Of a stretch of DNA of 51,963 nucleotides, positions 4,383 through 22,835 are shown in pieces (the first letter of the stretch is position 1; each line of letters starts with the position of its first letter). A model generated the notes under the pieces. The model was given only the letters and a program-made list of their open reading frames with translations, had not been told where the DNA came from and did no database searches. The DNA lies in assembly GCA_017458675.1 (NCBI GenBank), contig JAFTAM010000164.1, forward strand, positions 1-51,963, written 5' to 3'. The position numbers and the translations under genes are program-made. Source of the DNA: a bacterium. GTDB taxonomy: Bacteria > Vulcanimicrobiota > Xenobia > Xenobiales > Xenobiaceae.

Positions 4383-4401
4383 ATATAATTTGCTCCTTTA
4401 C

Positions 4402-4429
4402 AAAAAAAAATAAGCCCCCGAAGGGACTT
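4402..4429 (-). terminator. Intrinsic terminator upstream of the capsid gene
   Basis: Read leftward, AAGTCCC-TTCG-GGGGCTT forms a 7 bp stem with a stable TTCG tetraloop (one G-T pair) followed by ATTTTTTTTTT. It sits within the late operon, directly before the capsid ribosome binding site. It could set gene dosage, need antitermination, or mark a promoter downstream that I cannot identify. Confidence 0.75.
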
Positions 4430-4463
4430 ATAAAAATTCTTAGCTCAGAATAACAGAAAGTTT

Positions 4464-4530
4464 TGTCATCCTGAGCCGCTAGGCGAAGGATCTTAACTCG
4501 ACAGATTCTTCGCTGTCGCTCAGAATGACA
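4464..4530. repeat. REP-like palindromic intergenic element
   Basis: This 67 bp element starts TGTCATCCTGAGCCGC and ends GCTCAGAATGACA, so its ends are inverted repeats. It is nearly identical to 2454-2520. Short fragments (CTCAGAATAACAG at 4444, CATAATGACAG at 4540) flank it, suggesting nested or decayed copies in the 4383-4582 gap. Confidence 0.85.
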
Positions 4531-4582
4531 GGAAGTTTGTCATAATGACAGCGTGCCAGCGGCTGAGACGGACAGCAAAAGC

Positions 4583-5464
4583 TTATCGCTGAGAATCAGC
4601 CTTCATGCGTTCAAACTGCTTATCCTCATATTCTTGGCGGCGTTCTGCCTCGGAAGAAGGCTTTTTGACCGCCGACAAGGCTTTTTCATGCTGCAGAGCC
4701 CTGCCGCTCTTTAATACGGTCAGCAGCTCGTAATTATCGCTGTGAGAAAGCTTCTGCATAAAGGTCTCTAAACCGTGAACCTGCGCAGGAGTGATATGAC
4801 CGCTTTCGACCAGCTCGCTGAGCTCGGCGCGAATATAGCCGGTTTTTCCTGCTTTAAGCTGTTTCTGCAGCTCGGCGATCTTTTGCTCGTTCTCTGCTAT
4901 CCGTTTGCTTAAATCCAAATTTGCCTGCTGCAGCTTAATATAGCTTTTATCTCTGGCCAGAATGCGGGCGGTGAATTTCTCGTCGACGGCGGCGGGAAAA
5001 GAAGTGATGGAAACTTCTATCAGGCGGCAGTCTCCGCTCTCTTCGTCCAGCTCTACGCCTACCGACAGATAGCGGTAAATGTCGGCCTTAATCTTCTCGA
5101 TGGCGTCAGCGTCTTTAAACTCAAGCAGGCCGTAGAGAACGTCCTCTTTGATAAACAGGCTGATGACGTGACCGACGGTCAGGAACGAAGAAGGTTCATG
5201 GTCGATCTGAATGGGCGGCTGAAAGACCTCGGGAGCGAAGTTCTCAAGGCATTTCTGCAGATGCTCGGGCGTAAAGGTTCTCCCGTTGAAAGTACCGGGC
5301 CAAAGCAGGCGGCATTCTTTGATAAAATGCTTCTCTTCGGCGGCTGGCTTCTCAGCGGGAGCTTCCTCTGCAGTTTCCGCAGCCTCTTCGGTTTCTGCCG
5401 AATCCAAGCCGACCTTTTCCTCTTCCTCAGGCTCCAGTTCCGCAGGAATGATTATTTTTTTCAT
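4583..5464 (-). CDS. Phage capsid maturation protease/scaffold (Mu gpI-like)
   Basis: After an acidic, Glu/Ala-rich N-terminus (1-45), residues 46-170 look like a Mu I-type prohead protease: HFIKECRLLWPGTFNGRTF, then QIDHEPSSFLTVGHV with a conserved His, then RYLSVGVEL and LIEVSITSFPAAV near the expected catalytic Ser segment. Residues about 180-215 form a coiled coil (NLDLSKRIAENEQKIAELQ) typical of a fused scaffold domain. It lies between the Mu F-like gene and the capsid gene, the usual place. GAGAGGT precedes the ATG. Confidence 0.8.
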   Translation of the reverse strand: MKKIIIPAELEPEEEEKVGLDSAETEEAAETAEEAPAEKPAAEEKHFIKECRLLWPGTFNGRTFTPEHLQKCLENFAPEVFQPPIQIDHEPSSFLTVGHVISLFIKEDVLYGLLEFKDADAIEKIKADIYRYLSVGVELDEESGDCRLIEVSITSFPAAVDEKFTARILARDKSYIKLQQANLDLSKRIAENEQKIAELQKQLKAGKTGYIRAELSELVESGHITPAQVHGLETFMQKLSHSDNYELLTVLKSGRALQHEKALSAVKKPSSEAERRQEYEDKQFERMKADSQR

Positions 5465-6839: not shown

Positions 6840-8055
6840 TTGGCGTCCGTCCTTCCTCTATGGGATCGAAACCTAAGCGGTCGCGCATAATGTTGAGGTC
6901 CTCGCGATCCTGCAGCCCTACCACGCCGGAATTGACCATGTTTGCGAACGCTCCCGACAGCGCGCTCATCTCCTCGGCGTCAATAATTCGAGCCTGAAAA
7001 GCGCCCCAGTTATCTACGATGCCGAAATTAAAGGTTATCAGAGGCCGAATAAGCTGCTCTAAAATCGTTTCGGTCACCGATTTGACAATGTAGTCGAGCC
7101 CCAGCAAAAACAAATTGAAATGAGTTTTACCCAGAGCGTAAGAGCCGATGTCGCCGTTATCCATAAGCAATGACGGCAGCAGCAGACCTCTCATAATCAT
7201 GCGGTTGCAGTGGGTCTGCAGCTCCTCAAAATCCTTGCCGACGCCGCCGGGCGAATAGTGAATATCCAGACGCTGGCCTTCATTCAAAACGACGCCGGAA
7301 CAAACCCGAAGCTGCTGCATCTTGTCAAGCATGTGAGCGGCTTCGGTCTTCTCTTTGCCGTTTTCATCCTTGACCATCTGGCTGCCGTCCTGCACGGTAA
7401 CAACGGACAGAGGGCTGCCGTATCGCTCTAATGTCAAGCCCCAGGCCTGAAGCATTCGGTCCTTCAGGAACCAGTTTTTGTAAATGGCTTTGAGGCGGCT
7501 GCGTCCGTAAGGATTAGAAGCTTCGTGACCAATAAAGTCGCTGGCAAAATGTATAACCTTGTTATACGGAATATGGACCTCTTCGCTCTGATTGACGTGC
7601 TGGATGACCTCTTCGATTAAGCCGTGGCGCAAGCCGTGCTCGGTATTGACTTTAAACCTGACGTCCTCCTGATTCAGAGGAAGCAGACTGTGCAGCCAAA
7701 TCTGCCCTTTGCGGACCTTGGTGACGATTTCCAGCACCGAAAAGCCTGCCCAGATAGCTTCCAGCAGACTTTTGACCGACAGGGCGAAGCTGCCCTGCAT
7801 CAGCTCGAAGTTCCGGCGGATAAAGCTCTGAATATGCGGATAATCCTTATTGGTATATTCGCCGAGCCGGGAAAGACAGGCCAGAGAGACAAACTCCAGG
7901 GCGGCAGCCACGGTCTCGTCGGTCGTTACCATGCGCCGATAAGTAGATATTCCGATCTTGTCAGGCGAATCCAGATAACCGGACAGCTGCTCATAAGACT
8001 GGATGTTCTGTTCCAGAGCCACGCCGGGGGCGGGTATAGACGGAAAACTATTCAT
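6814..8055 (-). CDS. Phage portal protein (DUF935, Mu gp29-like)
   Basis: The 413-residue product has DUF935 portal hallmarks: YRRMVTTDETVAAALEF near the N-terminus, LLEAIWAGFSVLEIV, HSLLPLNQEDVRF, NPYGRSRLKAIYKNW and GSYALGKTHFNLF. Portals form the dodecameric DNA entry ring. I place the start at 8055, where ATG overlaps the terminase stop as ATGA, like neighbouring gene junctions; an in-frame ATG at 8073 has no better ribosome binding site. It lies between the terminase and Mu F-like genes, the standard order. Confidence 0.88.
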   Translation of the reverse strand: MNSFPSIPAPGVALEQNIQSYEQLSGYLDSPDKIGISTYRRMVTTDETVAAALEFVSLACLSRLGEYTNKDYPHIQSFIRRNFELMQGSFALSVKSLLEAIWAGFSVLEIVTKVRKGQIWLHSLLPLNQEDVRFKVNTEHGLRHGLIEEVIQHVNQSEEVHIPYNKVIHFASDFIGHEASNPYGRSRLKAIYKNWFLKDRMLQAWGLTLERYGSPLSVVTVQDGSQMVKDENGKEKTEAAHMLDKMQQLRVCSGVVLNEGQRLDIHYSPGGVGKDFEELQTHCNRMIMRGLLLPSLLMDNGDIGSYALGKTHFNLFLLGLDYIVKSVTETILEQLIRPLITFNFGIVDNWGAFQARIIDAEEMSALSGAFANMVNSGVVGLQDREDLNIMRDRLGFDPIEEGRTPSEQEQTTT

Positions 8056-9404
8056 ACAAACATATTTCCCCATTCGGTGATTTGAGGCGCTAAGGCCGGC
8101 ACGCCGGGAACAAACCTAGACGCATGGCTGCAGGCCAAAGCCAGAGACATGACGCAGTCGTCATGCTTCCCCGGCGGCGCCGCATAGGTGATATTGCCGT
8201 AACTCGTTCTTTTACAGGCGAAGTCCCGCATTTCGTAAAAAAGGACCGGAACCAGGCAGTCCAGAACCGCGCCGACTCTGCGGGCGGGAAGCTGCAGATT
8301 CTGTCTTTCCGTCAGCAGCATGAGGTTTTCGATAATGCGAACCTTGGAAGCGTTCGAGGTTATAAAGGGACTCAGCCGGTAAGGGAAGCCCTTAGTCAGC
8401 TCTTCAATCAAGGGATCGCCTATGCTGTTCTGCTCCGGAATAACGATAAACGGCTGCCAGACGTCCAGGCGCCGCCGGATGCGGCGGATCTGCGTGCTGT
8501 AATCTACCTGCACCAGACGCAGGAAATCGACCAGCCGGAAGGGTTCCTCGGTGATATCGACGACGGTCAGGACCGAAGCGTCCCCTCGGCGGCCCCAGTC
8601 TATACCGGCGGCATAGCGATGCAGCGGCTCAGGGTCCGGCGGCCATTTATCGACGGCGACTAAGGCCGACTCCAGACGCAAGAAGACTTCCGCCTCGTTT
8701 TCGTCGATAAATTCGGCTAGGCAAGTTTCCCGAAAGTCCCGGTCGGTAGTTGTCCGGCGCAGGTCTTCAATAAATCTCTTATTGATAAGCGGATTGCTGG
8801 CGGTAGGAAACTGCCAGGATTCCCAATCCGGCATGAGCGGGTCCTGTCCGTTGCGCCAAAGATTGTAAAACCAATTCTTGCCGCGCGGCGTACTGTTGAC
8901 GGTCGCCAGACCGCCGGCGCCTTTGGGACCGCGGCCGGGACTTATAAGGCGTCCGACCAGCTCGGCGCCCCAGGCGTCTTCACGCAGCAGGGCAGCCTCG
9001 GTGACGGCCAGATAATCGACGCCTCGCCCCACCAATCCTCCGGGCTTTTCTCCCGATTTCAGCTCAATGACGACGTTGCCGGGAAGCTCCAGCGTTTTGG
9101 CGGCCTCATGGAAAACGGCGGCGTCTTTGAGATAGGCGCGAAACTCTGCCCAGGCCTGATTGAGAAGCTTATATGTTGGAGCGACGTACCAGGCCAGAAC
9201 CCTCGGAATCAGTTCATCTCGGCCGGATTCTCCCGCCATCTCCGCACAGTGCTTGAGTAAGTCCATAATCGTGCAGCGGTCCTTGCCCCACCTCTGACCA
9301 CAGCAAAGCACCTTAAAGCGCGCCTTGGACCTATGCACCAACAGCTGCCCCGGATGAGGCTTGTAAGGTATGGTTATCTCTTTGACAGCCGTTTCCTCAG
9401 CCAT
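8052..9404 (-). CDS. terL: Phage terminase large subunit
   Basis: The 450-residue DNA-packaging motor has an ATPase N-terminal half with Walker A-like CGQRWGKD (about 35-42) and Walker B YLAVTE (about 132-137), and an RNase H-like nuclease C-terminal half with AGIDWGRRGDAS (about 270) and HDDCVMSLALA (about 425). GGAAGGA precedes the ATG. Its usual partner, the small subunit, is not next to it but is encoded on the opposite strand at 11127, across a 1.1 kb control region and another gene. This separation is unusual. Confidence 0.93.
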   Translation of the reverse strand: MAEETAVKEITIPYKPHPGQLLVHRSKARFKVLCCGQRWGKDRCTIMDLLKHCAEMAGESGRDELIPRVLAWYVAPTYKLLNQAWAEFRAYLKDAAVFHEAAKTLELPGNVVIELKSGEKPGGLVGRGVDYLAVTEAALLREDAWGAELVGRLISPGRGPKGAGGLATVNSTPRGKNWFYNLWRNGQDPLMPDWESWQFPTASNPLINKRFIEDLRRTTTDRDFRETCLAEFIDENEAEVFLRLESALVAVDKWPPDPEPLHRYAAGIDWGRRGDASVLTVVDITEEPFRLVDFLRLVQVDYSTQIRRIRRRLDVWQPFIVIPEQNSIGDPLIEELTKGFPYRLSPFITSNASKVRIIENLMLLTERQNLQLPARRVGAVLDCLVPVLFYEMRDFACKRTSYGNITYAAPPGKHDDCVMSLALACSHASRFVPGVPALAPQITEWGNMFV

Positions 9405-9439: not shown

Positions 9440-9496
9440 AAAAAAAAATAAGATAAGCGAACGACAGCAAAGGGGAAAGCGTCCGTTTATCTTATT
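9440..9496 (-). terminator. Long hairpin with T-run before the terminase gene
   Basis: Arms AATAAGATAAGCGAACG (9447-9463) and CGTCCGTTTATCTTATT (9480-9496) form a near-perfect 17 bp stem. On the minus strand it is followed by a run of nine T, so it reads as an intrinsic terminator between the candidate late promoter (9539-9567) and terL. A second possible stem (CTCGCT/AGCGAG) lies at about 9508-9529. Confidence 0.75.
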
Positions 9497-9538
9497 TTAC
9501 AAACTCGCTCTGCGTCAGGGCACAGCGAGGTCCCCTAT

Positions 9539-9635: not shown

Positions 9636-9703
9636 AGACAATAATTATGTACATCAGAAATCTTGGCGATCTTCAATTCTTGACGCAGTCGGCTGCAGGC
9701 GGT

Positions 9704-9965
9704 TGCTGGTGGTCTGCAGGTGGTCCAAAACGACCACCAGCAGAAAAAAGCCCGATTTTTCGGCGTTTGCAGGGGGTGCAGGTGGTGCAGGTAGTCTATG
9801 CTATGATCATAAAAAAAAAGTATATAATATATTCACTATAAGTGAATAGATATTTTATATATATAAGTAAACTGCGGCGGACCCCCTGCACCACCTGCAG
9901 ACGGGTCAGGAAGCCCGTAATTTCAAGCTTTCTGCCTGCTGGTGGTCCCTCGGCGACCACCAGCA
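9704..9965. repeat. Nested grand palindrome around an AT-rich core
   Basis: Four exact copies of TGCTGGTGGTC or its complement form two hairpins (9704-9714/9732-9742 and 9937-9947/9955-9965). Inside them, TGCAGGTGGTGCAGG (9777-9791) pairs with 9885-9899. At the centre lies ATTCACTATAAGTGAAT (9831-9847) within about 90 bp of almost pure A/T. The three levels share nearly one centre (about 9835-9839) with matching gaps of about 34 and 37 bp. Nothing here looks coding. Candidate roles are replication origin, partition site or regulator-binding site; none is proven. More ACCACC copies continue to about 9985. Confidence 0.85.
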
Positions 9966-10140
9966 GAACCACCTGCACCACCAGCAGAAGGTATTACGGC
10001 CTTGCCTGCCGCAAAGGTTTATCAAACCTTATCAAACGCCAGGTCCTGCGCGCATGAAAGAGCGGTCCGGAAAACTGCCCGAAACCGCCGCAAAGCGATC
10101 CCCGGCGATTCTGCCATAGGTCTGACGTCGATCTTCTTAG

Positions 10141-10239
10141 TTATCAACAGGTTATCAACAGGCTTTTTATCATAAACTGTTTTCATAACGAGATTTTTTA
10201 CTTATGATCAAAAGCTAACTTATTCACAAGTTTTCAACA
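10141..10239 (+). promoter_or_regulatory. Cluster of DnaA-box-like 9-mers
   Basis: Two TTATCAACA copies (10141-10149, 10152-10160), one TTATTCACA (10220-10228) and one TTTTCAACA (10231-10239) all lie in the same orientation. They resemble the TTATNCACA DnaA-box consensus, the first two with one mismatch. Together with the AT-rich palindrome and direct repeats nearby they suggest a phage replication origin. Binding is not shown. Confidence 0.5.
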
Positions 10240-10468
10240 AGGTTCTGATCATAAGCCCTTTGATCAAAGCAAAAACCGCCGATTATGATAAAAAGCGCCT
10301 GATTTTATCATTAGTCACGCAGTACGTGCACGCAGTCTTTTATGCACGCAGTAAACTATTCAATATAATGCCTGTTTTTCAAGGGTTTGCCCGTTTATAG
10401 TCGAACATTCAGAGTATTATTAAAAATAATATTCACACATCTTGTCACTTATTTTTATGATAAAAAGG
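10163..10468. promoter_or_regulatory. Repeated TTATGAT(C/A)AAAA operator-like motif
   Basis: The motif or its complement occurs near 10164 (TTTTTATCATAA), 10202 (TTATGATCAAAA), 10246 (TGATCATAAG), 10258 (CTTTGATCAAAG, a perfect palindrome), 10283 (TTATGATAAAAA), 10303 (TTTTATCATTA) and 10452 (TTTTTATGATAAAAA, palindromic). The last sits just before the ribbon-helix-helix gene, which suggests autoregulation. A TATAAT at 10364-10369 could be that gene's -10 box. Confidence 0.5.
10316..10352 (+). repeat. Three CACGCAGT direct repeats (iteron-like)
   Basis: Exact copies lie at 10316-10323, 10329-10336 and 10345-10352, spaced 13 and 16 bases apart. Short direct repeats beside DnaA-like boxes resemble replication-initiator binding sites. 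CACGCA also recurs near the integrase end (22760-22790), where it may have another meaning. Confidence 0.6.
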
Positions 10469-10480
10469 CGGGTTTAATCA

Positions 10481-11074
10481 ATGGCTGAAGAAGGCAAAAT
10501 CTACTGTCCCCGGTGCGGGCGTCCTATGGTGAAAAGCGGCTTATGTGATTACTTCTGTTATGACAGGACCTGTCCCGGCTATCTGTCGGCTCAGGCTGCG
10601 CTCCGTCAGGCAGGCGTTCAGGACCCTTTTTTCAATGTTGACTTCAAACAGCTTATGAGCAAACCCTGTCCGGAAGAAGCCAAAGGGCACGGCAGCGGCC
10701 GCGCTAAAGCCAAGAAGCCTGTCCGGAAGCCTGCAAGGTCTTCTCTCTACTTTGAGAAAGCCTTTAAAGAGCTTACTCCTCCTGATGCTGAGGAGGCCGA
10801 AAAGCTTAAGTCCGTTTCGCTGCGCATTCCTGCCCGAATGAAAGAGAAACTGAACGCTATTTCGGAAGCTTCCGGCGTGCCTTTCAGCAGTGTGATGCGC
10901 CTTGCCGTCGGCGGCTTCACGGCCCGATGTGAAGAAGCCGTCTGTCTTTGCCCTCGCTGCACCTTCCCGCTTCTTTCTGATGACGAGCCCTGCCCGATCT
11001 GCAGCCGGCAGCCGAACAGCGAGCCGACCGAACCTGACCCTGCTCAGAAATTACCGACGGCCCCCATCGCCTGA
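10481..11074 (+). CDS. Zinc-ribbon / ribbon-helix-helix / zinc-ribbon protein
   Basis: The 197-residue protein has an N-terminal zinc ribbon (YCPRCGRPM, then CDYFCYDRTCPGY, about 8-33) and a basic linker (about 68-88). A ribbon-helix-helix-like segment follows (KSVSLRIPARMKEKLNAISE... FSSVMRLAVGGFTAR, about 108-148), then a second zinc ribbon (CLCPRCTFPL and CPIC, about 152-178). RHH proteins are usually DNA-binding repressors. The gene faces away from terL, with the repeat-rich region upstream and the small terminase gene downstream, so a role in late-gene control or packaging is plausible. I do not know this architecture as a named family. Confidence 0.75.
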   Translation: MAEEGKIYCPRCGRPMVKSGLCDYFCYDRTCPGYLSAQAALRQAGVQDPFFNVDFKQLMSKPCPEEAKGHGSGRAKAKKPVRKPARSSLYFEKAFKELTPPDAEEAEKLKSVSLRIPARMKEKLNAISEASGVPFSSVMRLAVGGFTARCEEAVCLCPRCTFPLLSDDEPCPICSRQPNSEPTEPDPAQKLPTAPIA

Positions 11075-11126: not shown

Positions 11127-11639
11127 ATGGCTGAAGAAGAGTTTGTCATCCGCATGCCGGGCGCGCCGTCGCCCTCGGAACCGCCTGCCGAGCTGCAGAA
11201 GACCAGAGACGATGTGCTCAACCGCTTAACCGACCAGCAGCTCCGCTTCTGCATGGAGATGGTACGCTGCCCTCAACCCAAGAAGGCTGCGCTCAATGCC
11301 GGCTACGCGCCCAAGTCGGCGGCGCAGTCCGCCTACAACCTGCTGCACTCGGAGCGCTATGCCTATGTGCAGGAAGCCCTGCGCCTGCTGCAGGCCGAAG
11401 CCGACCGTCGGAGCTACGACGACAAAAGAGCGGTCATCCGCGACATTCTGGAAGTCTATGAGCAGGCCCGCATGGAGGGCGACCTGAAAAGTCAGATTAA
11501 GCTCCTCGACATCCGAGCCCGCATTCTGGGCATGTATTCCGGCAGCGTCGAAAGCGGCAGCGTGCCGCGCAAAACCGAGGTAACCCTGCGCTTCGTGCCG
11601 CCGGCGTCGCAGTCCGATCCCCAGGCAACTTTGTTCTGA
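11127..11639 (+). CDS. terS: Phage terminase small subunit
   Basis: The 170-residue protein has the Terminase_2 pattern: LTDQQLRFCMEMV, then KKAALNAGYAPKSAAQSAYNLL (a helix-turn-helix for DNA recognition, about 52-75), then a helical oligomerisation region (RDILEVYEQARMEGDLKSQIKLLDIRARILGMY). It recognises the packaging site and hands DNA to the large subunit. GAGG precedes the ATG. It is transcribed opposite to terL and follows the RHH gene by 52 bp. Confidence 0.88.
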   Translation: MAEEEFVIRMPGAPSPSEPPAELQKTRDDVLNRLTDQQLRFCMEMVRCPQPKKAALNAGYAPKSAAQSAYNLLHSERYAYVQEALRLLQAEADRRSYDDKRAVIRDILEVYEQARMEGDLKSQIKLLDIRARILGMYSGSVESGSVPRKTEVTLRFVPPASQSDPQATLF

Positions 11640-11787: not shown

Positions 11788-12222
11788 ATGTATAGAGCCA
11801 GCGACGTTGCAAAATATATTTTATGGCGAAATACAGCTGACGGAACGCCTGCAAGCAATTTACGGCTGCAGAAACTGCTTTACTTCGCTTGGGTCGTTTA
11901 TTATAAGAATTTCCGCAAGCGCTTATTTGAAGACGCTATCTGCGCATGGAAATTCGGCCCGGTAGTTCCCTCTGTATATTATGAGTATTGCCAATACGCA
12001 GGTCTTCCCATTCGAGTATATGAGAAACCTTCTTATGCAGACGATCTTATCATTTTAGACAAGTTAATGGCCAAATACTTTAAACAGACTACAAGCGATT
12101 TAGTTAAGGAAACGCACGCCCCCGGCAAACCATGGGATATAGTTTTTAATAACGGCAGCGGAAATCGACAAATCATAGCATTTTCTCTTATTGAGGATAT
12201 AGAAAGCCGATGCCTCAATTGA
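11788..12222 (+). CDS. Panacea-domain (DUF4065) antitoxin, PanA-like
   Basis: The 144-residue protein has the Panacea/SocA/GepA pattern: DVAKYILWRN at the start, LRLQKLLYFAWVVYYK (about 28-43), AWKFGPVVPSVYYEY (about 54-68) and a helical C-terminus. Panacea proteins are versatile antitoxins that pair with many unrelated toxins, often encoded in prophages. The next gene overlaps this one by 13 bp. Promoter and ribosome binding site are strong. The antitoxin-first order and overlap support a two-gene addiction or anti-phage module. Confidence 0.85.
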   Translation: MYRASDVAKYILWRNTADGTPASNLRLQKLLYFAWVVYYKNFRKRLFEDAICAWKFGPVVPSVYYEYCQYAGLPIRVYEKPSYADDLIILDKLMAKYFKQTTSDLVKETHAPGKPWDIVFNNGSGNRQIIAFSLIEDIESRCLN

Positions 12223-12986
12223 ACGGTGATAAGCAAAGAGAAAAACAGTCGCAGTTAAACGCTCTTCTTTCAGACATGGCCGTTAATGTTACAGAACATG
12301 CGTTATACGATAAATGGCTTGAAAAGTTTAACTCCATTTATTCCGACGATTTCCGACACTGTTATTCGGAATTGTTTACTGTCATTTCAAAATTAGGCAA
12401 AAAAGATACAGAATATATAAACGCGCTAGCAGACAATTTAATCAATATTCAGCAATACTTACAAGACATGGAACCGGAAGAGAAAAAACGCCGAGGCTAT
12501 CACGAAAACCTTAATTCCGGTCTTTGGAAATTAGCCGACCATATAAACCTGGAAATCGGCCGCTACAGCTTTATGGTTAAAAATGAAACAGCTGTCAGCG
12601 ATACGCAAAAACAGATTGAGAGCCTGCAAAATCAGTTGGCCGTCTCAAGGCAAGAGTTAGAAAACGCCCAGAAAAAATTTTCATCCATGCAAATAGACAT
12701 GGTCGCAGTTTTGGGCGTCTTTGCAGCTATAGTCATTGCCTTTTCCGGTTCAATAACCTATTCTGCAGGTTCTCTTTCTGCGTTGGGCAAAGCTTCGTCG
12801 TCGGAGGTGCTTCTCTGCATATCCATGTGCGGCTTTGTTGTAATCAATACTATTTACGTTTTATTGCGCACCGTAGGCATAATTATAGATAAAAATATTT
12901 TTGCGAACAAAACTTATATCGCTGCCATAAATGCGTTTTTGGTCATTTTAATGGCTATTTGTATATTTTTATTAGCGTATAAATAA
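12210..12986 (+). CDS. Membrane protein, predicted toxin of the PanAT-type pair
   Basis: The 258-residue protein has a helical N-terminal region, a coiled coil (about 130-160, QKQIESLQNQLAVSRQEL) and three hydrophobic segments at about 163-183, 199-222 and 237-257. I do not recognise a catalytic motif. Published PanT toxins include small membrane-acting proteins, so membrane depolarisation is a reasonable guess. The toxin role rests on the 13 bp overlap with the Panacea gene, the shared promoter and the terminator after the pair. The region is more AT-rich than the flanking phage genes, fitting recent acquisition. Confidence 0.65.
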   Translation: MPQLNGDKQREKQSQLNALLSDMAVNVTEHALYDKWLEKFNSIYSDDFRHCYSELFTVISKLGKKDTEYINALADNLINIQQYLQDMEPEEKKRRGYHENLNSGLWKLADHINLEIGRYSFMVKNETAVSDTQKQIESLQNQLAVSRQELENAQKKFSSMQIDMVAVLGVFAAIVIAFSGSITYSAGSLSALGKASSSEVLLCISMCGFVVINTIYVLLRTVGIIIDKNIFANKTYIAAINAFLVILMAICIFLLAYK

Positions 12987-13016
12987 AACCCGTCGCTCTG
13001 AGTGCGGCGGGCTTTA
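12985..13016. terminator. Bidirectional terminator between PanAT and the DUF1828/1829 gene
   Basis: CCCGTCGC-TCTGAGT-GCGGCGGG forms a stem flanked by A-rich and T-rich sides, so it can end transcription from both directions. Its sequence, including the TCTGAGT loop, is almost identical to the terminator at 14378-14408. Confidence 0.8.
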
Positions 13017-13040
13017 TAAATCATATTTTAAGTGCTTGTT

Positions 13041-13799
13041 CTATGCAGTGAGCTGATTTAGGTTTTTCGGCAAATTACGCTCGCTCCACTTTATGACGCT
13101 TACGTTATACTTTTCAAACGCGTCTTCAATTCCGCGAGGAATCGTATTTGAATCATTCAAAAACACTATCAGCCTGCTGTCGTTCCGTCTTGACGGCTTA
13201 GTGTCTTCCCAAGCAAACAGTATATTTCCCATGCTGGACTTATTAGGATTATTAAGCGTCCGGCACAGCCGCTCCGGCTTCTTGCTGCTTCTTTGAAACA
13301 AAAAATCATAGTTGTGGGAAAAGCCTGACGTCCCTGTAAACTGTACATTATCTACGTAGTATATCTTATTCTCTCTGAAGAAAGCCTGGATATCCTCAAC
13401 AAAAAACGACGCCGTCCTAACCTTAGCGGTCATAAACATATCGTCAATACGCATCATGGCCTGAACGAAGAAATGTTTCTTTTGAGGAAAATCGCAAATA
13501 TTTCCTTTTGATACAAGCTGTTTTCCCTGCAAATTCACGCCGTATTGAGCTAAAATGCTTTTCAGCAGCGTCTTTCTGGCCGGAGTGAACTGGACCCCGT
13601 TCATCTCTAAGCTGTTTATAATAACGCCGTCATCGGTGAATAATATGTCATTCCCGTCCTGCCTTACATAAATCTGCAGGTAATCATTCGCGCTGTCTAA
13701 ATACGGCGTGGTTATTTCATAGTATTCGCCGTATTGTTCAAACGATATTTCACTTTTTAACCAGTTCGCATAGTTGTCAATTAGCTTCTGAATATCCAT
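13041..13799 (-). CDS. DUF1828/DUF1829 protein
   Basis: The 252-residue protein has an N-terminal DUF1828-like domain (YYEITTPYLDSANDYLQIYV, then DILFTDDGVIINSLEMNG, about 26-70) and a C-terminal DUF1829-like domain (about 120-245). No biochemical activity is established for either that I can cite. It lies 26 bp downstream of the 13826-14272 gene, shares its promoter and ends at a terminator, so the two form a cassette. Such isolated pairs in prophages are often defence or addiction genes. That role is inferred. Confidence 0.75.
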   Translation of the reverse strand: MDIQKLIDNYANWLKSEISFEQYGEYYEITTPYLDSANDYLQIYVRQDGNDILFTDDGVIINSLEMNGVQFTPARKTLLKSILAQYGVNLQGKQLVSKGNICDFPQKKHFFVQAMMRIDDMFMTAKVRTASFFVEDIQAFFRENKIYYVDNVQFTGTSGFSHNYDFLFQRSSKKPERLCRTLNNPNKSSMGNILFAWEDTKPSRRNDSRLIVFLNDSNTIPRGIEDAFEKYNVSVIKWSERNLPKNLNQLTA

Positions 13800-13825
13800 T
13801 TATTCCCTCCTTTCCGGCAAAACAT

Positions 13826-14272
13826 TTAGATTAGTTCAGTCTGCATATGTATATCAGGGCGTTCTATGACGTTAAAGCGCTTCAAAAGAAGCAGCGTGTT
13901 CTCTATGAATTGATTGCTCTGCAGGTCCTCGGCCTTTTCAGCAAAAGAACGACCGTATTCTTCTGAATAGATATGCCAATGCGAACCTATAATAACCGTC
14001 CCGTCAGGGTTGCGGTGCCGACTTGTCGGGTTTATATGCAATTCCATAAGCATAACCCCGGAAACTGTTATTCGCGCGCCTATATAGCATTTTAGCCTAT
14101 TGACAGTTCCCCTGAATATGTCAATCGTAAAATTATCTCTTTTCGTTGTCCCTTCAACCTGGAAACTGGCTTTTTTACCTCTTTCCGGAAATAAAACGAC
14201 TTTTTCCAAAGTGCGCTTCAGCATAGATATCATCATATCCGCTTCTTGCTGCGTTAACTTGGCAGCGGCCAT
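13826..14272 (-). CDS. DUF6978-like protein, partner of the DUF1828/1829 gene
   Basis: The 148-residue protein has a helical start (LTQQEADMMISMLKRTLEK), a beta-rich centre (KASFQVEGTTKRDNFTIDIFRG) and a His-containing segment (MELHINPTSRHRNPDG, then GSHWHIYSEEYG). This resembles proteins annotated DUF6978 that lie beside DUF1828 genes; the name is from memory. The start at 14272 is chosen for GAAGGTG six bases upstream, over an ATG at 14281. It is first in a two-gene cassette with its own promoter. Confidence 0.6.
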   Translation of the reverse strand: MAAAKLTQQEADMMISMLKRTLEKVVLFPERGKKASFQVEGTTKRDNFTIDIFRGTVNRLKCYIGARITVSGVMLMELHINPTSRHRNPDGTVIIGSHWHIYSEEYGRSFAEKAEDLQSNQFIENTLLLLKRFNVIERPDIHMQTELI

Positions 14273-14318
14273 AAAAAGCACCTTCTCAATTTATAAATTC
14301 TTACAGAACACAAATCGG

Positions 14319-14347
14319 ATATTATCACAGCTATTTCAGCTTTTCAA
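14319..14347 (-). promoter_or_regulatory. Promoter of the DUF6978/DUF1828 cassette
   Basis: On the minus strand, TTGAAA (14347-14342) and TAATAT (14324-14319) are 17 bases apart, about 45 bases before the start codon. The promoter sits between the early-operon terminator and the cassette, giving it independent expression. Confidence 0.65.
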
Positions 14348-14377
14348 TATAAAAAAATAAATTTACTAAAATAAATA

Positions 14378-14408
14378 AAAGCCCGGCGCTCTGAGTGCGT
14401 CGGGCTTT
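14378..14408 (-). terminator. Terminator of the early leftward operon
   Basis: AAAGCCCGGCGC-TCTGAGT-GCGTCGGGCTTT forms a 12 bp stem followed on the minus strand by TTTATTTAT. It is nearly identical to 12985-13016, so the two copies flank the DUF6978/DUF1828 cassette as direct repeats. Confidence 0.8.
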
Positions 14409-14753: not shown

Positions 14754-17408
14754 TTATTCAAACAGGCTGCCGGTGGAGAAAGTATCGCGGAAAAGATCTT
14801 CTTCATCAGCGACAGCGTTAATATCGGCGGGGCTCATGCCCGGTTTGGACAGACTGTAAAGACTGGTTCCGGCTCGGTCCTTGCCCATGTGAACGATCTG
14901 CAGACCGCCATGGGGAGCGCGGTTCAGGGTGCGCAGCTTGCGGCTGAAGGAGGCTAAGCGGCTTTTCTCGCTCGTCCCGGATATCTGAGTAAGCAACAGC
15001 CCGTTTTCTTCGGCGAAGCTGAACAGCGCTTTTGCATAGACGTTGCGGTAAGGAAGCTTCTTCGACTCCCGCCAGAAGAGCAGGAACTCCTGCCATTCGT
15101 CTTCTTTGTCGGCCACGTAAGCCTTGGCTTGCTTGCGGTTGCAGAGGAAACCGGGAATCTTGGCTGCGCAGAGAATTCCACCGATGACGTCGTACCAGCC
15201 TTCGTAAGAGCCCTGCGGCGCAGGCGGCGGACCTTCCCAGCACCAGGCTTCCTCCACCGTCGGCCGCCCTTTCTCAATCCAGTTGAGCACAAGCACGGTC
15301 AGAGCTTCAAAGATGACCTTCCAGTTCTTCAGGACATACTGCTGAATGTTGGGATGCTTAAAATTGCTCCGAGCCCGCTCCGCAGGGTTTTCGGTCTTGG
15401 CGTCAAGCTCGATTAAAGCCACGCGGCGCATGGTGTCGGGCGAAAGCTTCAGGTTGTTGCCGGTCCCAATCCAGAGCGCGTAATTCTTGCCGTCCGCTTC
15501 CTTGGACTGGCCGAGGATTCGGTTGCGCACCGTTACCGAGGTTAAGCAGTTAGACAGCGCTTCATTGTCGAGCGTGCCGACGATATTGTCGATAAAGATA
15601 TACTGAGGACACGACAGCAGCGAAGCGAACAGCACCTTGTTCCAGGCTTCTGAGTTGAACGAGCCGGCTGCAGGCGGGATAATGGCTCCCGGATTCTCTA
15701 GACCGAGCGAAGACATCAGAATGACTTTGGCCAGCAGACTTTTGCCGGTTCCGGCCGTAGGAGCGATAATCAGAAACATCGGCGAAGGTCCGGAATACAT
15801 CTGCCGAACCAGAGGCTGCAGCATCGCGCCTATGGCGTGAGCTCGGCTGGCTTCGTCGGTGAACGGGAAATCGAAGAGCACCTCATTGAGGTTCCGCACC
15901 GCATTTTCCACATAAGCGGAAACCGGCGAAGGCGGATTCAGCTCGGCTTCGATTTCCGGGATGTAATACACTTTAGTTTCCGGATCGTAGCCCTTCTGCA
16001 TCCGGATATCGCCGCCGCTCGAAAAGATCGGCGCGGTGGTTATCTGAGTAAGCTCGGGCAGATGCCAGCGTGAAGCCGGCAGTCCCAAAAAGGCGGAAGC
16101 CAGATCTTTAGGCACGAACTTTTTATGCTCGCTGCCGTCCTTGCGAATGAAGATAAAGTCCATTTTGGAGATCAGCTCAGCCCGAAGCGAATCCAGGTTA
16201 ATTTCCGACAGGCTGCGCGTCTGCAGGCTAAGACGGTTCATCGCGCCCATCACGTTGAATATGAGCGGCGGATCGTTGAGCTTAACGAAAAGCTCGAGCG
16301 TTTCTTCCAGCGCTGCGTGAGGGTCGACGTTGAAGATTACCTGCGGCCGTTCTTCCGCATCAGCGCGGGGCGGCTCGGCCGAAGCGGACGCCTTGGCGGT
16401 TTTTCCGGCAGAATTTGAGATAATCTCCTTTTTGGGGACGGGCGCAGGTTCGGCGGCTTCAAGTAAACCCAGCTGTCTGTCATCCTGCGCCTCATGAGCG
16501 GCTTTCTTGAGCGTTAAAAACTCATTGAGCGTATGCCCGGATTCCACCCAGTCGGTGAGATCGCCCTTGGGCGGCAAGTCAGGAAGACGAAGAATATACG
16601 CCTTAATTCCCGCTTCAGTGAGGAAACTGTGTATTTCCCGAGCGTGTTTTTCGCCCGGTTCGTCGTTGTCGGGGATAATATAGCAGTCTTTCCCCCGCAG
16701 AGAGTCTACGCAGTTGCTGAACGCTTCTTTCCAGCCGCTGCTGCCGTTGTTATTGGTGACGGCTACATGGCCGAATTTAAGCGCGGTATTGCAGTCCTTT
16801 TCGCCTTCGCAAATCAATACGTCACGCAGCGGCTGAGTCTTCGGACGCGGCGCCGCCAGCAAGTCGAGATTGTAAAGAATGCGCCTGACGCCTTTAAGAC
16901 CGACATAATACTGTCCGGGTTTGTCGGGTATGACAGCCCATTGTCGGAATTGCTTCTGCTTTTTGCCGTTTTCCCCGATTTTCTCGTGTCGGGTTACAAC
17001 GTACAGAACCTTGCCCAGCTCATCCTTATACTTATATTCAGCCGTAGGCATTCCGTAGCCGCCGCCGCAGTAAAAGGACTTAGCGATCTTCGGCTCCGTT
17101 TCCGGAGGCGGCGTCTTCGGCGCCGTCTGGTCCGGCGGATAATATCGCAGTCCCTTGTCTTCGTGCGGAGGCTCAGGCAGGCTGCAGTGATTGTCCTGCA
17201 GCACCTTCCAGAGCCGACCGTTAACGCCGCAGGCCTGGCATTGACACCAGCCGCTTGAAAGCGATACCTTGAAGCTGCTGCGGCTGCCGCCATGTACAGG
17301 GCACTTTGCCCAATACCAGATATTCCCCTGATCGTCGGTGTATTCTTTAACATCGGTCAGGTTTTCGTTTATCCACTTTCTCAGGGCGTTGCCGTCTATA
17401 CTGTACAT
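14754..17408 (-). CDS. Phage bifunctional primase-helicase
   Basis: The 884-residue replication protein has a CHC2-type zinc finger (CPVH at 36-39, CQAC at 57-60) and a TOPRIM domain (LICEGEKDC near 205, IIPDNDEPG near 247). A linker of about 100 residues leads to a helicase/ATPase domain with Walker A APTAGTGKS (near 550) and Walker B YIFIDN (near 600). C-terminal residues about 750-884 are unassigned. It primes and unwinds phage DNA. It is the main replication gene of the early operon; candidate origin sites lie at 9.7-10.4 kb. Confidence 0.88.
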   Translation of the reverse strand: MYSIDGNALRKWINENLTDVKEYTDDQGNIWYWAKCPVHGGSRSSFKVSLSSGWCQCQACGVNGRLWKVLQDNHCSLPEPPHEDKGLRYYPPDQTAPKTPPPETEPKIAKSFYCGGGYGMPTAEYKYKDELGKVLYVVTRHEKIGENGKKQKQFRQWAVIPDKPGQYYVGLKGVRRILYNLDLLAAPRPKTQPLRDVLICEGEKDCNTALKFGHVAVTNNNGSSGWKEAFSNCVDSLRGKDCYIIPDNDEPGEKHAREIHSFLTEAGIKAYILRLPDLPPKGDLTDWVESGHTLNEFLTLKKAAHEAQDDRQLGLLEAAEPAPVPKKEIISNSAGKTAKASASAEPPRADAEERPQVIFNVDPHAALEETLELFVKLNDPPLIFNVMGAMNRLSLQTRSLSEINLDSLRAELISKMDFIFIRKDGSEHKKFVPKDLASAFLGLPASRWHLPELTQITTAPIFSSGGDIRMQKGYDPETKVYYIPEIEAELNPPSPVSAYVENAVRNLNEVLFDFPFTDEASRAHAIGAMLQPLVRQMYSGPSPMFLIIAPTAGTGKSLLAKVILMSSLGLENPGAIIPPAAGSFNSEAWNKVLFASLLSCPQYIFIDNIVGTLDNEALSNCLTSVTVRNRILGQSKEADGKNYALWIGTGNNLKLSPDTMRRVALIELDAKTENPAERARSNFKHPNIQQYVLKNWKVIFEALTVLVLNWIEKGRPTVEEAWCWEGPPPAPQGSYEGWYDVIGGILCAAKIPGFLCNRKQAKAYVADKEDEWQEFLLFWRESKKLPYRNVYAKALFSFAEENGLLLTQISGTSEKSRLASFSRKLRTLNRAPHGGLQIVHMGKDRAGTSLYSLSKPGMSPADINAVADEEDLFRDTFSTGSLFE

Positions 17409-21623: not shown

Positions 21624-22700
21624 CTAAATATTATCCAGTGCGTTTAAGATTCTATCGACGGAATTTTTTGAGGTATGGCAGTAAACGTTTAAAGTCATCG
21701 AGGCGTTGGCGTGCCCGAGACGGTCGGCCACCGCCTTGGGATCGCCGATTCTCGACATCAGAAAGGTGGCATGAGTATGGCGCAGGTCGTAAACCCGCAG
21801 ATGCTTTTCTATTCCCGCCTCTTTTAAAAGGACTTGCAGCATTTTATATAAAGCGCCGGAGCGTATTATTTTTCCGTGTATAGACGGAAAAACCAAATTT
21901 AAAGGATTAAAAACCAGGTTCGCCTTCTGCCATTGCTGCAGCTCCCGCAGCTCGGCCATAAGGTCGGCAGGCATACCTATTTCCCGCAGGCTCTTTTTGG
22001 TTTTGGCTGTATTTACGCGGATTTCTCCTTCGTATGCTGTCTGTTCGATTTTGACGGTTCCCTTCTTGAAGTTTACCTTATCCCAAGTCAGCCCGGTATA
22101 TTCCTCCGGCCTGGCTCCGCTCAAAACCGCAAAGGCGAAAACCGTATATCTTTTGTCGATTCTGCAGGCATCCAAAAACCTTTTGATCTCTTCCTGCTCC
22201 AAAAATTGAAAATCTTTTCGCTCTTTTTTTATCGGCGACAAGCTGTTCATCGGGTTCTTCGGTATCAGCTCCATGCGCACGGCAAAATTTAAAATGACCT
22301 TCAGCACCCGCCAGAATAAAGCCTTTGAATTGGCGGACAGCCCAGCCGGCAGCCGTTTTAATAACTGAGAGAGCGTAAAAGGTTTGATCTCGGTTATGAG
22401 AACGCCGCCGATGATACCGGAGGCAATATCAAGATTATGACTATAACCCCTTTGCGTTATCTTTGAAAGCTCTGTAAAATGATAATCGGCCTTATATATA
22501 GCCACAAGATCGTTGAAATTATAATTCTGCGGAGTTAAGCTCCCTTCGCTCAGCCGACGCTTATAATCATTCTCGTATTTTTCGGCATCGCGTTTTAAGC
22601 CTGTGATCGTTTTCGTGTGAAAAAGCCTCTTGCCGTCGGCTCCTCGCCCTAAAAATATTCTCACCTGCCATTTATTTTTGGCACGCTTGCTGATAGCCAT
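21624..22700 (-). CDS. int: Tyrosine integrase
   Basis: The 358-residue protein has an N-terminal arm-binding segment (KRAKNKWQVRIFLGRG), a core-binding domain (about 55-140) and a catalytic domain. Catalytic residues are visible: Arg in LSGARPEEYTGL, the HxxR-type box in YDLRHTHATFL, GH in DRLGHANASMT and the nucleophile Tyr in LNVYCH. It integrates and excises the prophage. The start at 22700 follows AAAGGGG; an upstream in-frame ATG at 22751 has no ribosome binding site. It is the last prophage gene before host DNA. Confidence 0.92.
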   Translation of the reverse strand: MAISKRAKNKWQVRIFLGRGADGKRLFHTKTITGLKRDAEKYENDYKRRLSEGSLTPQNYNFNDLVAIYKADYHFTELSKITQRGYSHNLDIASGIIGGVLITEIKPFTLSQLLKRLPAGLSANSKALFWRVLKVILNFAVRMELIPKNPMNSLSPIKKERKDFQFLEQEEIKRFLDACRIDKRYTVFAFAVLSGARPEEYTGLTWDKVNFKKGTVKIEQTAYEGEIRVNTAKTKKSLREIGMPADLMAELRELQQWQKANLVFNPLNLVFPSIHGKIIRSGALYKMLQVLLKEAGIEKHLRVYDLRHTHATFLMSRIGDPKAVADRLGHANASMTLNVYCHTSKNSVDRILNALDNI

Positions 22701-22835
22701 ATAAAAATAACCCCTTTGCTGTTGATGCGTGCCTACTATAGCAAAATTCATTTTACTTGTAAACAGTCACGCAAAAAACACGCAAAGGGGCTGTATAGAT
22801 AAATAAAAGCGCGGAATTTTCGAGGTTTAACAGCG
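22701..22835. other. Prophage end / candidate attachment-site region
   Basis: Between the integrase start and the host phosphoesterase stop there is no gene. Two direct CACGCAAA copies (about 22770-22790) and inverted TGCGTG nearby are candidate integrase arm sites. TTAACAGCGTTAA beside the host stop codon could be a small host terminator stem or part of the core. No tRNA is present, so the phage has not used a tRNA site at this end. The core cannot be defined without the other junction. Confidence 0.4.

Follow-up and report, generated by a model that had tools for sequence, protein, structure and literature searches.

A noncoding region of the contig JAFTAM010000164.1 (assembly GCA_017458675.1), from a bacterium of the family Xenobiaceae, very probably contains the replication origin of a temperate phage. 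The window in this study is the whole stretch of 51,963 nucleotides, and positions refer to its forward strand. The proposed origin, at 9694-9986 together with 10136-10260, would be of the bidirectional theta type and bound by the phage's own helicase. An origin had been suggested, beside a centromere or a looped switch, in a first-pass annotation of the same DNA. This suggestion is now strongly supported by homologous arrays linked to helicases, of which one is an experimentally established origin, and by host-type DnaA boxes.

In the noncoding stretch between terL and the divergent gene 10481, TGCAGGTGGT occurs 13 times when one mismatch is allowed. All of these copies lie within 9694-9986 and form a mirrored array of the unit TGC(A/T)GGTGGT. 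Nine of the 13 match TGCWGGTGGT exactly, and the rest of the window has no further exact copy. The units are ordered >>>< >>> (AT core) << ><<<, and with distances the layout reads >-10->-11->-18-<-35->-9->-9->-95-<-9-<-47->-19-<-12-<-9-<. No other such array was found in the window. A search of the host genome for further copies returned a single occurrence, and a dispersed repeat of the repetitive extragenic palindromic (REP) type was dropped on that ground. The arms around an AT-rich segment could also suggest an invertible promoter, but the 13 units follow a conserved origin grammar and make that reading unnecessary.

The first-pass annotation had described three nested palindromes with one shared centre, identical 11-mers forming hairpins at both ends and an order unlikely by chance. 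The 11-mers that it named are in place (TGCTGGTGGTC at 9704-9714 and 9937-9947, GACCACCAGCA at 9732-9742 and 9955-9965), but the better left hairpin pairs 9713-9725 with 9732-9744, and the two end hairpins therefore differ in loop length. Inside them lies the inverted repeat it reported, at 9777-9796 / 9880-9899 (20 nt, 90%) or, in another register, at 9764-9786 / 9881-9903 (23 nt, 87%). The central palindrome ATTCAC-TATAA-GTGAAT was likewise found, at 9831-9847. The centres of these elements agree, falling at 9833.5-9839.5. However, the outer hairpins, the inner inverted repeat and the central palindrome are not separate levels; they are parts of one mirrored array made of copies of one unit, and the symmetry is that of the units. 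The region contained 42 repeated 9-mers in 300 bp, whereas 2000 dinucleotide shuffles averaged 0.76 and never exceeded 10. An ungapped base-by-base dyad gave 57 matches and was not above chance (shuffle maxima averaged 53.6 and reached 62). The array thus exceeds chance, whereas a strict single centre at base level does not. The single-strand fold of the array was far below that of shuffles (z -10 for RNA, z -8.7 for DNA), because inverted arrays necessarily fold so.

The link to the helicase was found through homologues of the phage primase-helicase; queries with TerL or the ribbon-helix-helix (RHH) protein of gene 10481 had not revealed it. A viral contig (L106) and a genome of the same family (L023) carry mirrored arrays with 9-bp spacing at the helicase 3' end, in which the unit sequence is entirely different. 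The comparison was widened to 39 helicase-homologue loci (viral contigs, phages, plasmids and relatives). In 19 of them, five or more units in mixed orientation form an array that begins -320 to +140 bp from the helicase stop; this tally used a detector picked after the first examples were known and is not one of independent cases because near-duplicates (e.g. L123/L131 and L127/L129) are included. None of 40 simulated loci had an array of five units anywhere. Most of the 19 loci have a unit sequence of their own, and one archaeal plasmid carries a weaker array of four units. The first-pass annotation had proposed that related prophages should share the symmetry between terL and the RHH/terS genes. 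The sequences upstream of TerL in 58 viral relatives were scored for repeats and gave no clear counterpart there, a few high scores not having been inspected singly. In relatives the symmetry is present at the helicase 3' end, and their terL/RHH locus was therefore the wrong place to look. L125 has a second 9-mer array, strong and of mixed orientation (ATCTTGAAC, 11 copies), at 15243-15547, far from the helicase.

The homologue with experimental data is RepA of the Streptomyces plasmid pWTY27, which is 27% identical to the window helicase over 450 aa (E 9e-44) and was also matched by tblastn. Replication of pWTY27 in S. lividans requires repA, repB and a noncoding array of 300 bp; RepA binds iteron/inverted-repeat DNA beside its own gene in electrophoretic mobility shift assays, a long inverted repeat is protected from DNase I, and replication was inferred by its authors to be bidirectional (PMC3583192). 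Its layout is >-11->-16-<-40->-9->-72-<-9-<-40->-16-<-11-<, and that of the related plasmid L140 is >-11->-10->-17-<-49->-9->-79-<-9-<-50->-18-<-10-<-11-<. With a tolerance of 3 bp for short gaps and 20 bp for long gaps, and with one extra window unit skipped, the window agreed in order, orientation and spacing with 12 of 12 units of L140 and with 9 of 10 of pWTY27. The units of both plasmids have sequences other than that of the window. When the window's own gaps and orientations were shuffled in 20,000 trials, none equalled the agreement with L140 and two equalled that with pWTY27.

Close pairs of loci showed what changes together with the units. The L123 and L124 helicases are more than 99% identical over about 830 residues and then 78% and 55% (last ~145-180 aa); their arrays have the same location, with units GGTGCCACTA versus GGGGGGACTA. 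The helicase domains of L023 and L024 are about 95-100% identical, and almost all units change from AGGTTCCGC to AGGTCCTGC. Differing sites amount to 30 of 108 within units, 19 of 166 in the stretches between them and 35 of 479 upstream. Differences in the protein are concentrated at the C-terminal end. Compensating change of the arms, which the first-pass annotation had proposed as a check, was thus found in an unexpected form, nearly all units changing together between related elements. The co-change of units and C-terminus fits a putative C-terminal reader domain. With near-identical helicase cores, different C-termini and different units, both pairs make an origin-recognition code directly testable. 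The origin-like array of L023 (17878-18155) and that of L024 (6826-7101) each fall within the helicase 3' coding end and encode a repetitive C-terminal tail.

These results bear on the reading of the array as a packaging (pac or cos) site, at which the small terminase would bind the repeats and the large terminase would cut in or near the core. The array does lie between terL and terS, and in some viral relatives an array stands between the helicase and genes that we read as terminase or portal. However, the same grammar occurs beside the helicase in Streptomyces plasmids whose inspected regions carry no terminase annotation, the units co-vary with the helicase C-terminus, and in pWTY27 replication depends on the array, to which RepA binds (PMC3583192). 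We consider a packaging site improbable.

An operator or centromere array for the RHH protein, in the manner of omega/parS, is judged slightly less probable again. RHH proteins can bind short-repeat arrays, and a gene 0.5 kb away encodes a weak RHH domain; a centromere bound by this product had been proposed at first pass. Against it, the genes examined include no ParA, pWTY27 and other elements have the array without an RHH protein at that place, and no array of the window type lies next to the RHH gene of L022, whose product is the one relative, a distant one (25% identical), of that of gene 10481. The centromere proposal is not supported, since the array grammar adjoins the helicase in Streptomyces plasmids and follows the helicase family.

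The core of the array and its right flank also speak for an origin. The least stable 50 bp (9821-9870) and the least stable 80 bp (9792-9871) of the window, by nearest-neighbour energies, both fall at the core. The host rnpA-dnaA intergenic region (oriC) contains three TTATCAACA boxes, and the 3.28-Mb genome has exactly two occurrences of the tandem pattern TTATCAACA-N1-4-TTATCAAC, one at 10141 and one in that intergenic region. The site could be an origin at which host DnaA or another phage protein is the initiator and the array serves copy control or handcuffing. The DnaA-box pair common only to the array flank and oriC speaks for this, as does a helicase gene that does not adjoin the array; RepA of pWTY27, however, binds its array directly, and the grammar follows the helicase family. 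This version is rated slightly lower still than the two alternatives above. A structured RNA or an antitermination/attenuator switch for the terL operon can practically be set aside despite the very strong predicted fold and an inverted repeat (~9498-9440) with a T9 tract on its terL side, since Rfam gave no family, tandem 9-bp direct repeats lack an RNA rationale and homologous arrays occur elsewhere without a comparable downstream gene.

For an origin read by the phage helicase, the following mechanism is proposed. Each arm has an inner pair or triple of units at 9-bp spacing, then a gap of about 35-47 bp, a single reversed unit and three units 9-12 bp apart, and would dock the primase-helicase, probably as one hexamer per arm. 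The C-terminal domain of the helicase would read the unit sequence. Two hexamers facing each other across the AT-rich core would then melt it, and two forks would start. The DnaA-box pairs to the right of the array may let host DnaA aid opening or link origin firing to the host. Helicase binding, hexamer number, the role of DnaA and fork direction in this phage are carried over from relatives.

Several observations weigh against this reading. The window array is 4.8 kb away from the helicase gene and does not adjoin it; the simplest guess is an insertion or inversion that left the RHH gene, terS and accessory genes between them. About half of the helicase homologues have no nearby array, including those of a large Caulobacter phage, small Psychrobacter plasmids and L121, which matches most of the protein length. 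No close phage relative was found with single queries of the gene 10481 product and of TerL in viral contigs, or of TerL in genome contigs, so that conservation bears on the window array only indirectly; within the host phylum only distant TerL relatives were obtained. A DNA-binding C-terminus of the helicase could not be confirmed from its AlphaFold model, as the predicted local distance difference test score (pLDDT) of 32, like that of 47 for the gene 10481 product, makes the models unusable for interpretation. In the close pairs, the co-change could also be one exchanged short segment, because array and C-terminus adjoin or overlap; some of the protein change between L023 and L024 is the array itself in translation. 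A single segment exchange is still a matched cassette, yet not two independent events.

The element is, judged by its genes, a temperate phage truncated by the left end of the contig. Besides the genes in Table 1, it encodes repressor-like, excisionase-like and Mu F-like head genes, and portal and capsid are predicted from open reading frames.

Table 1. Features of the proposed origin and genes of the prophage (unit orientation given as > or <).
Feature	Position	Strand	Remarks
Left outer cluster	9694..9742		Units 9694 >, 9704 >, 9715 >, 9733 <; spacing 10, 11, 18; includes left hairpin (unit list)
Left inner triple	9768..9795	+	Units 9768, 9777, 9786; 9-bp spaced, directed at core
AT-rich core	9796..9880		Probable DNA unwinding element (nearest-neighbour energies)
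Central palindrome TATTCAC-TATAA-GTGAATA	9830..9848		From sequence
Right inner pair	9881..9899	-	Units 9881, 9890; 9-bp spaced, directed at core
Right outer cluster	9937..9986		Units 9937 >, 9956 <, 9968 <, 9977 <; spacing 19, 12, 9; mirrors left outer cluster
Tandem host-type DnaA boxes	10141..10160	+	TTATCAACA twice (10141/10152), 11 bp apart
Second DnaA-box-like pair	10220..10239	+	TTATTCACA, TTTTCAACA (10220/10231), 11 bp apart
terL (terminase large subunit)	8052..9404	-	Bounds noncoding region on left
Gene 10481 (Zn-ribbon / RHH-like protein)	10481..11074	+	Weak domain hits; explanation works without it
terS (terminase small subunit)	11127..11639	+	
Primase-helicase, 884 aa	14754..17408	-	N-terminus Zn-ribbon/Toprim, C-terminal half P-loop helicase; pWTY27 RepA homologue, proposed initiator
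Integrase	21624-22751		

Between terS and the helicase, 11788-14281 encodes SocA/Panacea, probable membrane, DUF1828/DUF1829 and DUF6978 proteins, an accessory block of possible defence or toxin-antitoxin genes. Just beyond the helicase 3' end, 14301-14381 is a further very AT-rich stretch without repeats. The L022 relative of the gene 10481 product (4389-5018) has the same Cys-rich ends and precedes methyltransferase and probable terminase genes; the two possibly belong to a phage protein family without a Pfam model above cut-off. In the right flank of the array, another family of repeats, in mixed orientation (TTATGATAAAA / TGATCATAAG), recurs in steps of about 40 bp at 10162-10296 and again at 10456, interleaved with the DnaA-like boxes, and includes perfectly complementary 14-nt arms at 10162-10175 and 10283-10296. 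These repeats may be repressor operators or part of the origin. At 10311-10353, adjoining the possible origin, CACGCAGT occurs three times in about 40 bp. Directly upstream of terL, an inverted repeat with 19-nt arms followed by nine T on the minus strand (9440-9498) looks like a terminator ahead of a late operon, possibly under antitermination control. Rfam and tRNA searches of the window gave no match. A hairpin pattern scan returned nothing in viral contigs and 10 matches in bacterial genomes, which were read as palindromes unrelated to the site and lying in coding DNA, or as terminator-like sites without an array.

The origin named here is a likely one for an otherwise uncharacterised prophage. 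Beyond it, we would put at just short of an even chance the idea that one origin format is common to tailed phages, satellites such as P4 and the phage-inducible chromosomal islands (PICIs), and plasmids of bacteria and perhaps archaea. In this format a half-site of fixed spacing, single or mirrored, would keep its order and spacing, and the unit sequence would be free to change with the C-terminal reader of a self-loading helicase. If so, one hexamer would dock at each half-site, specificity would change by swapping a small cassette of C-terminus plus array, and origins could be separable even from the helicase gene, as in the window. The conserved spacing gives a search rule, by which such origins can be found by grammar instead of sequence.

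Several known systems share features with the window site. The iteron origins of P1, RK2 and F type consist mostly of direct repeats, and their initiators are small non-helicase Rep proteins. They resemble the window in having repeats, an AT-rich element and DnaA boxes (PMC5043065), but the direct repeats are one-sided there and the window array is mirrored. The Cch2 helicase of staphylococcal cassette chromosome (SCC) elements is of the self-loading type and was shown biochemically to bind repeats downstream of its own gene via its C-terminal domain, and the same binding is stated for Rep of the Staphylococcus aureus pathogenicity islands (SaPIs); the portion of that source considered here describes only three short direct repeats for Cch2 and no mirrored array (PMC7581432). 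In the P4 origin, six type I repeats (10, 11, 22, 43, 10 bp; >>><>>) match one window arm (10, 11, 18, 35, 9; >>><>>>), which 6 of 360 rearrangements equalled. P4 has a single arm plus a separate crr; only one such array was seen in the window, where the prophage is truncated by the left contig end. With a small 5-sequence profile, P4 alpha had no detectable homology to the window helicase (hhalign probability 0.2).

The window site is read as working like the origins of pWTY27, PICIs/SaPIs and P4, and it is placed nearest the pWTY27-type helicase/iteron origins. The two share a homologous helicase, the order and spacing of units, an inner inverted pair around the core (inside the footprinted IR2) and outer reversed units. 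The unit sequence in pWTY27 is GTGGGAAC, and its core is not AT-rich, unlike that of the window. Two tested features set the window site apart. The array adjoins repA in pWTY27, an adjacency that is a trait of pWTY27 and not established as family-defining, and the Toprim primase is fused to the helicase in the window, whereas pWTY27 has a separate primase/polymerase, RepB.

In PICIs and SaPIs, two iteron sets flank an AT-rich region and are read by the Rep helicase, a likeness in organisation, and this pri-rep-ori organisation was said to occur in no other known bacterial replicon (PMC6092414). The ori lies immediately 3' of rep in those satellite elements; it is displaced here, in a prophage with its own terL, terS and Mu F-like head gene. 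A layout said to be unique to PICIs thus extends to theta plasmids and to a prophage that encodes a terminase of its own.
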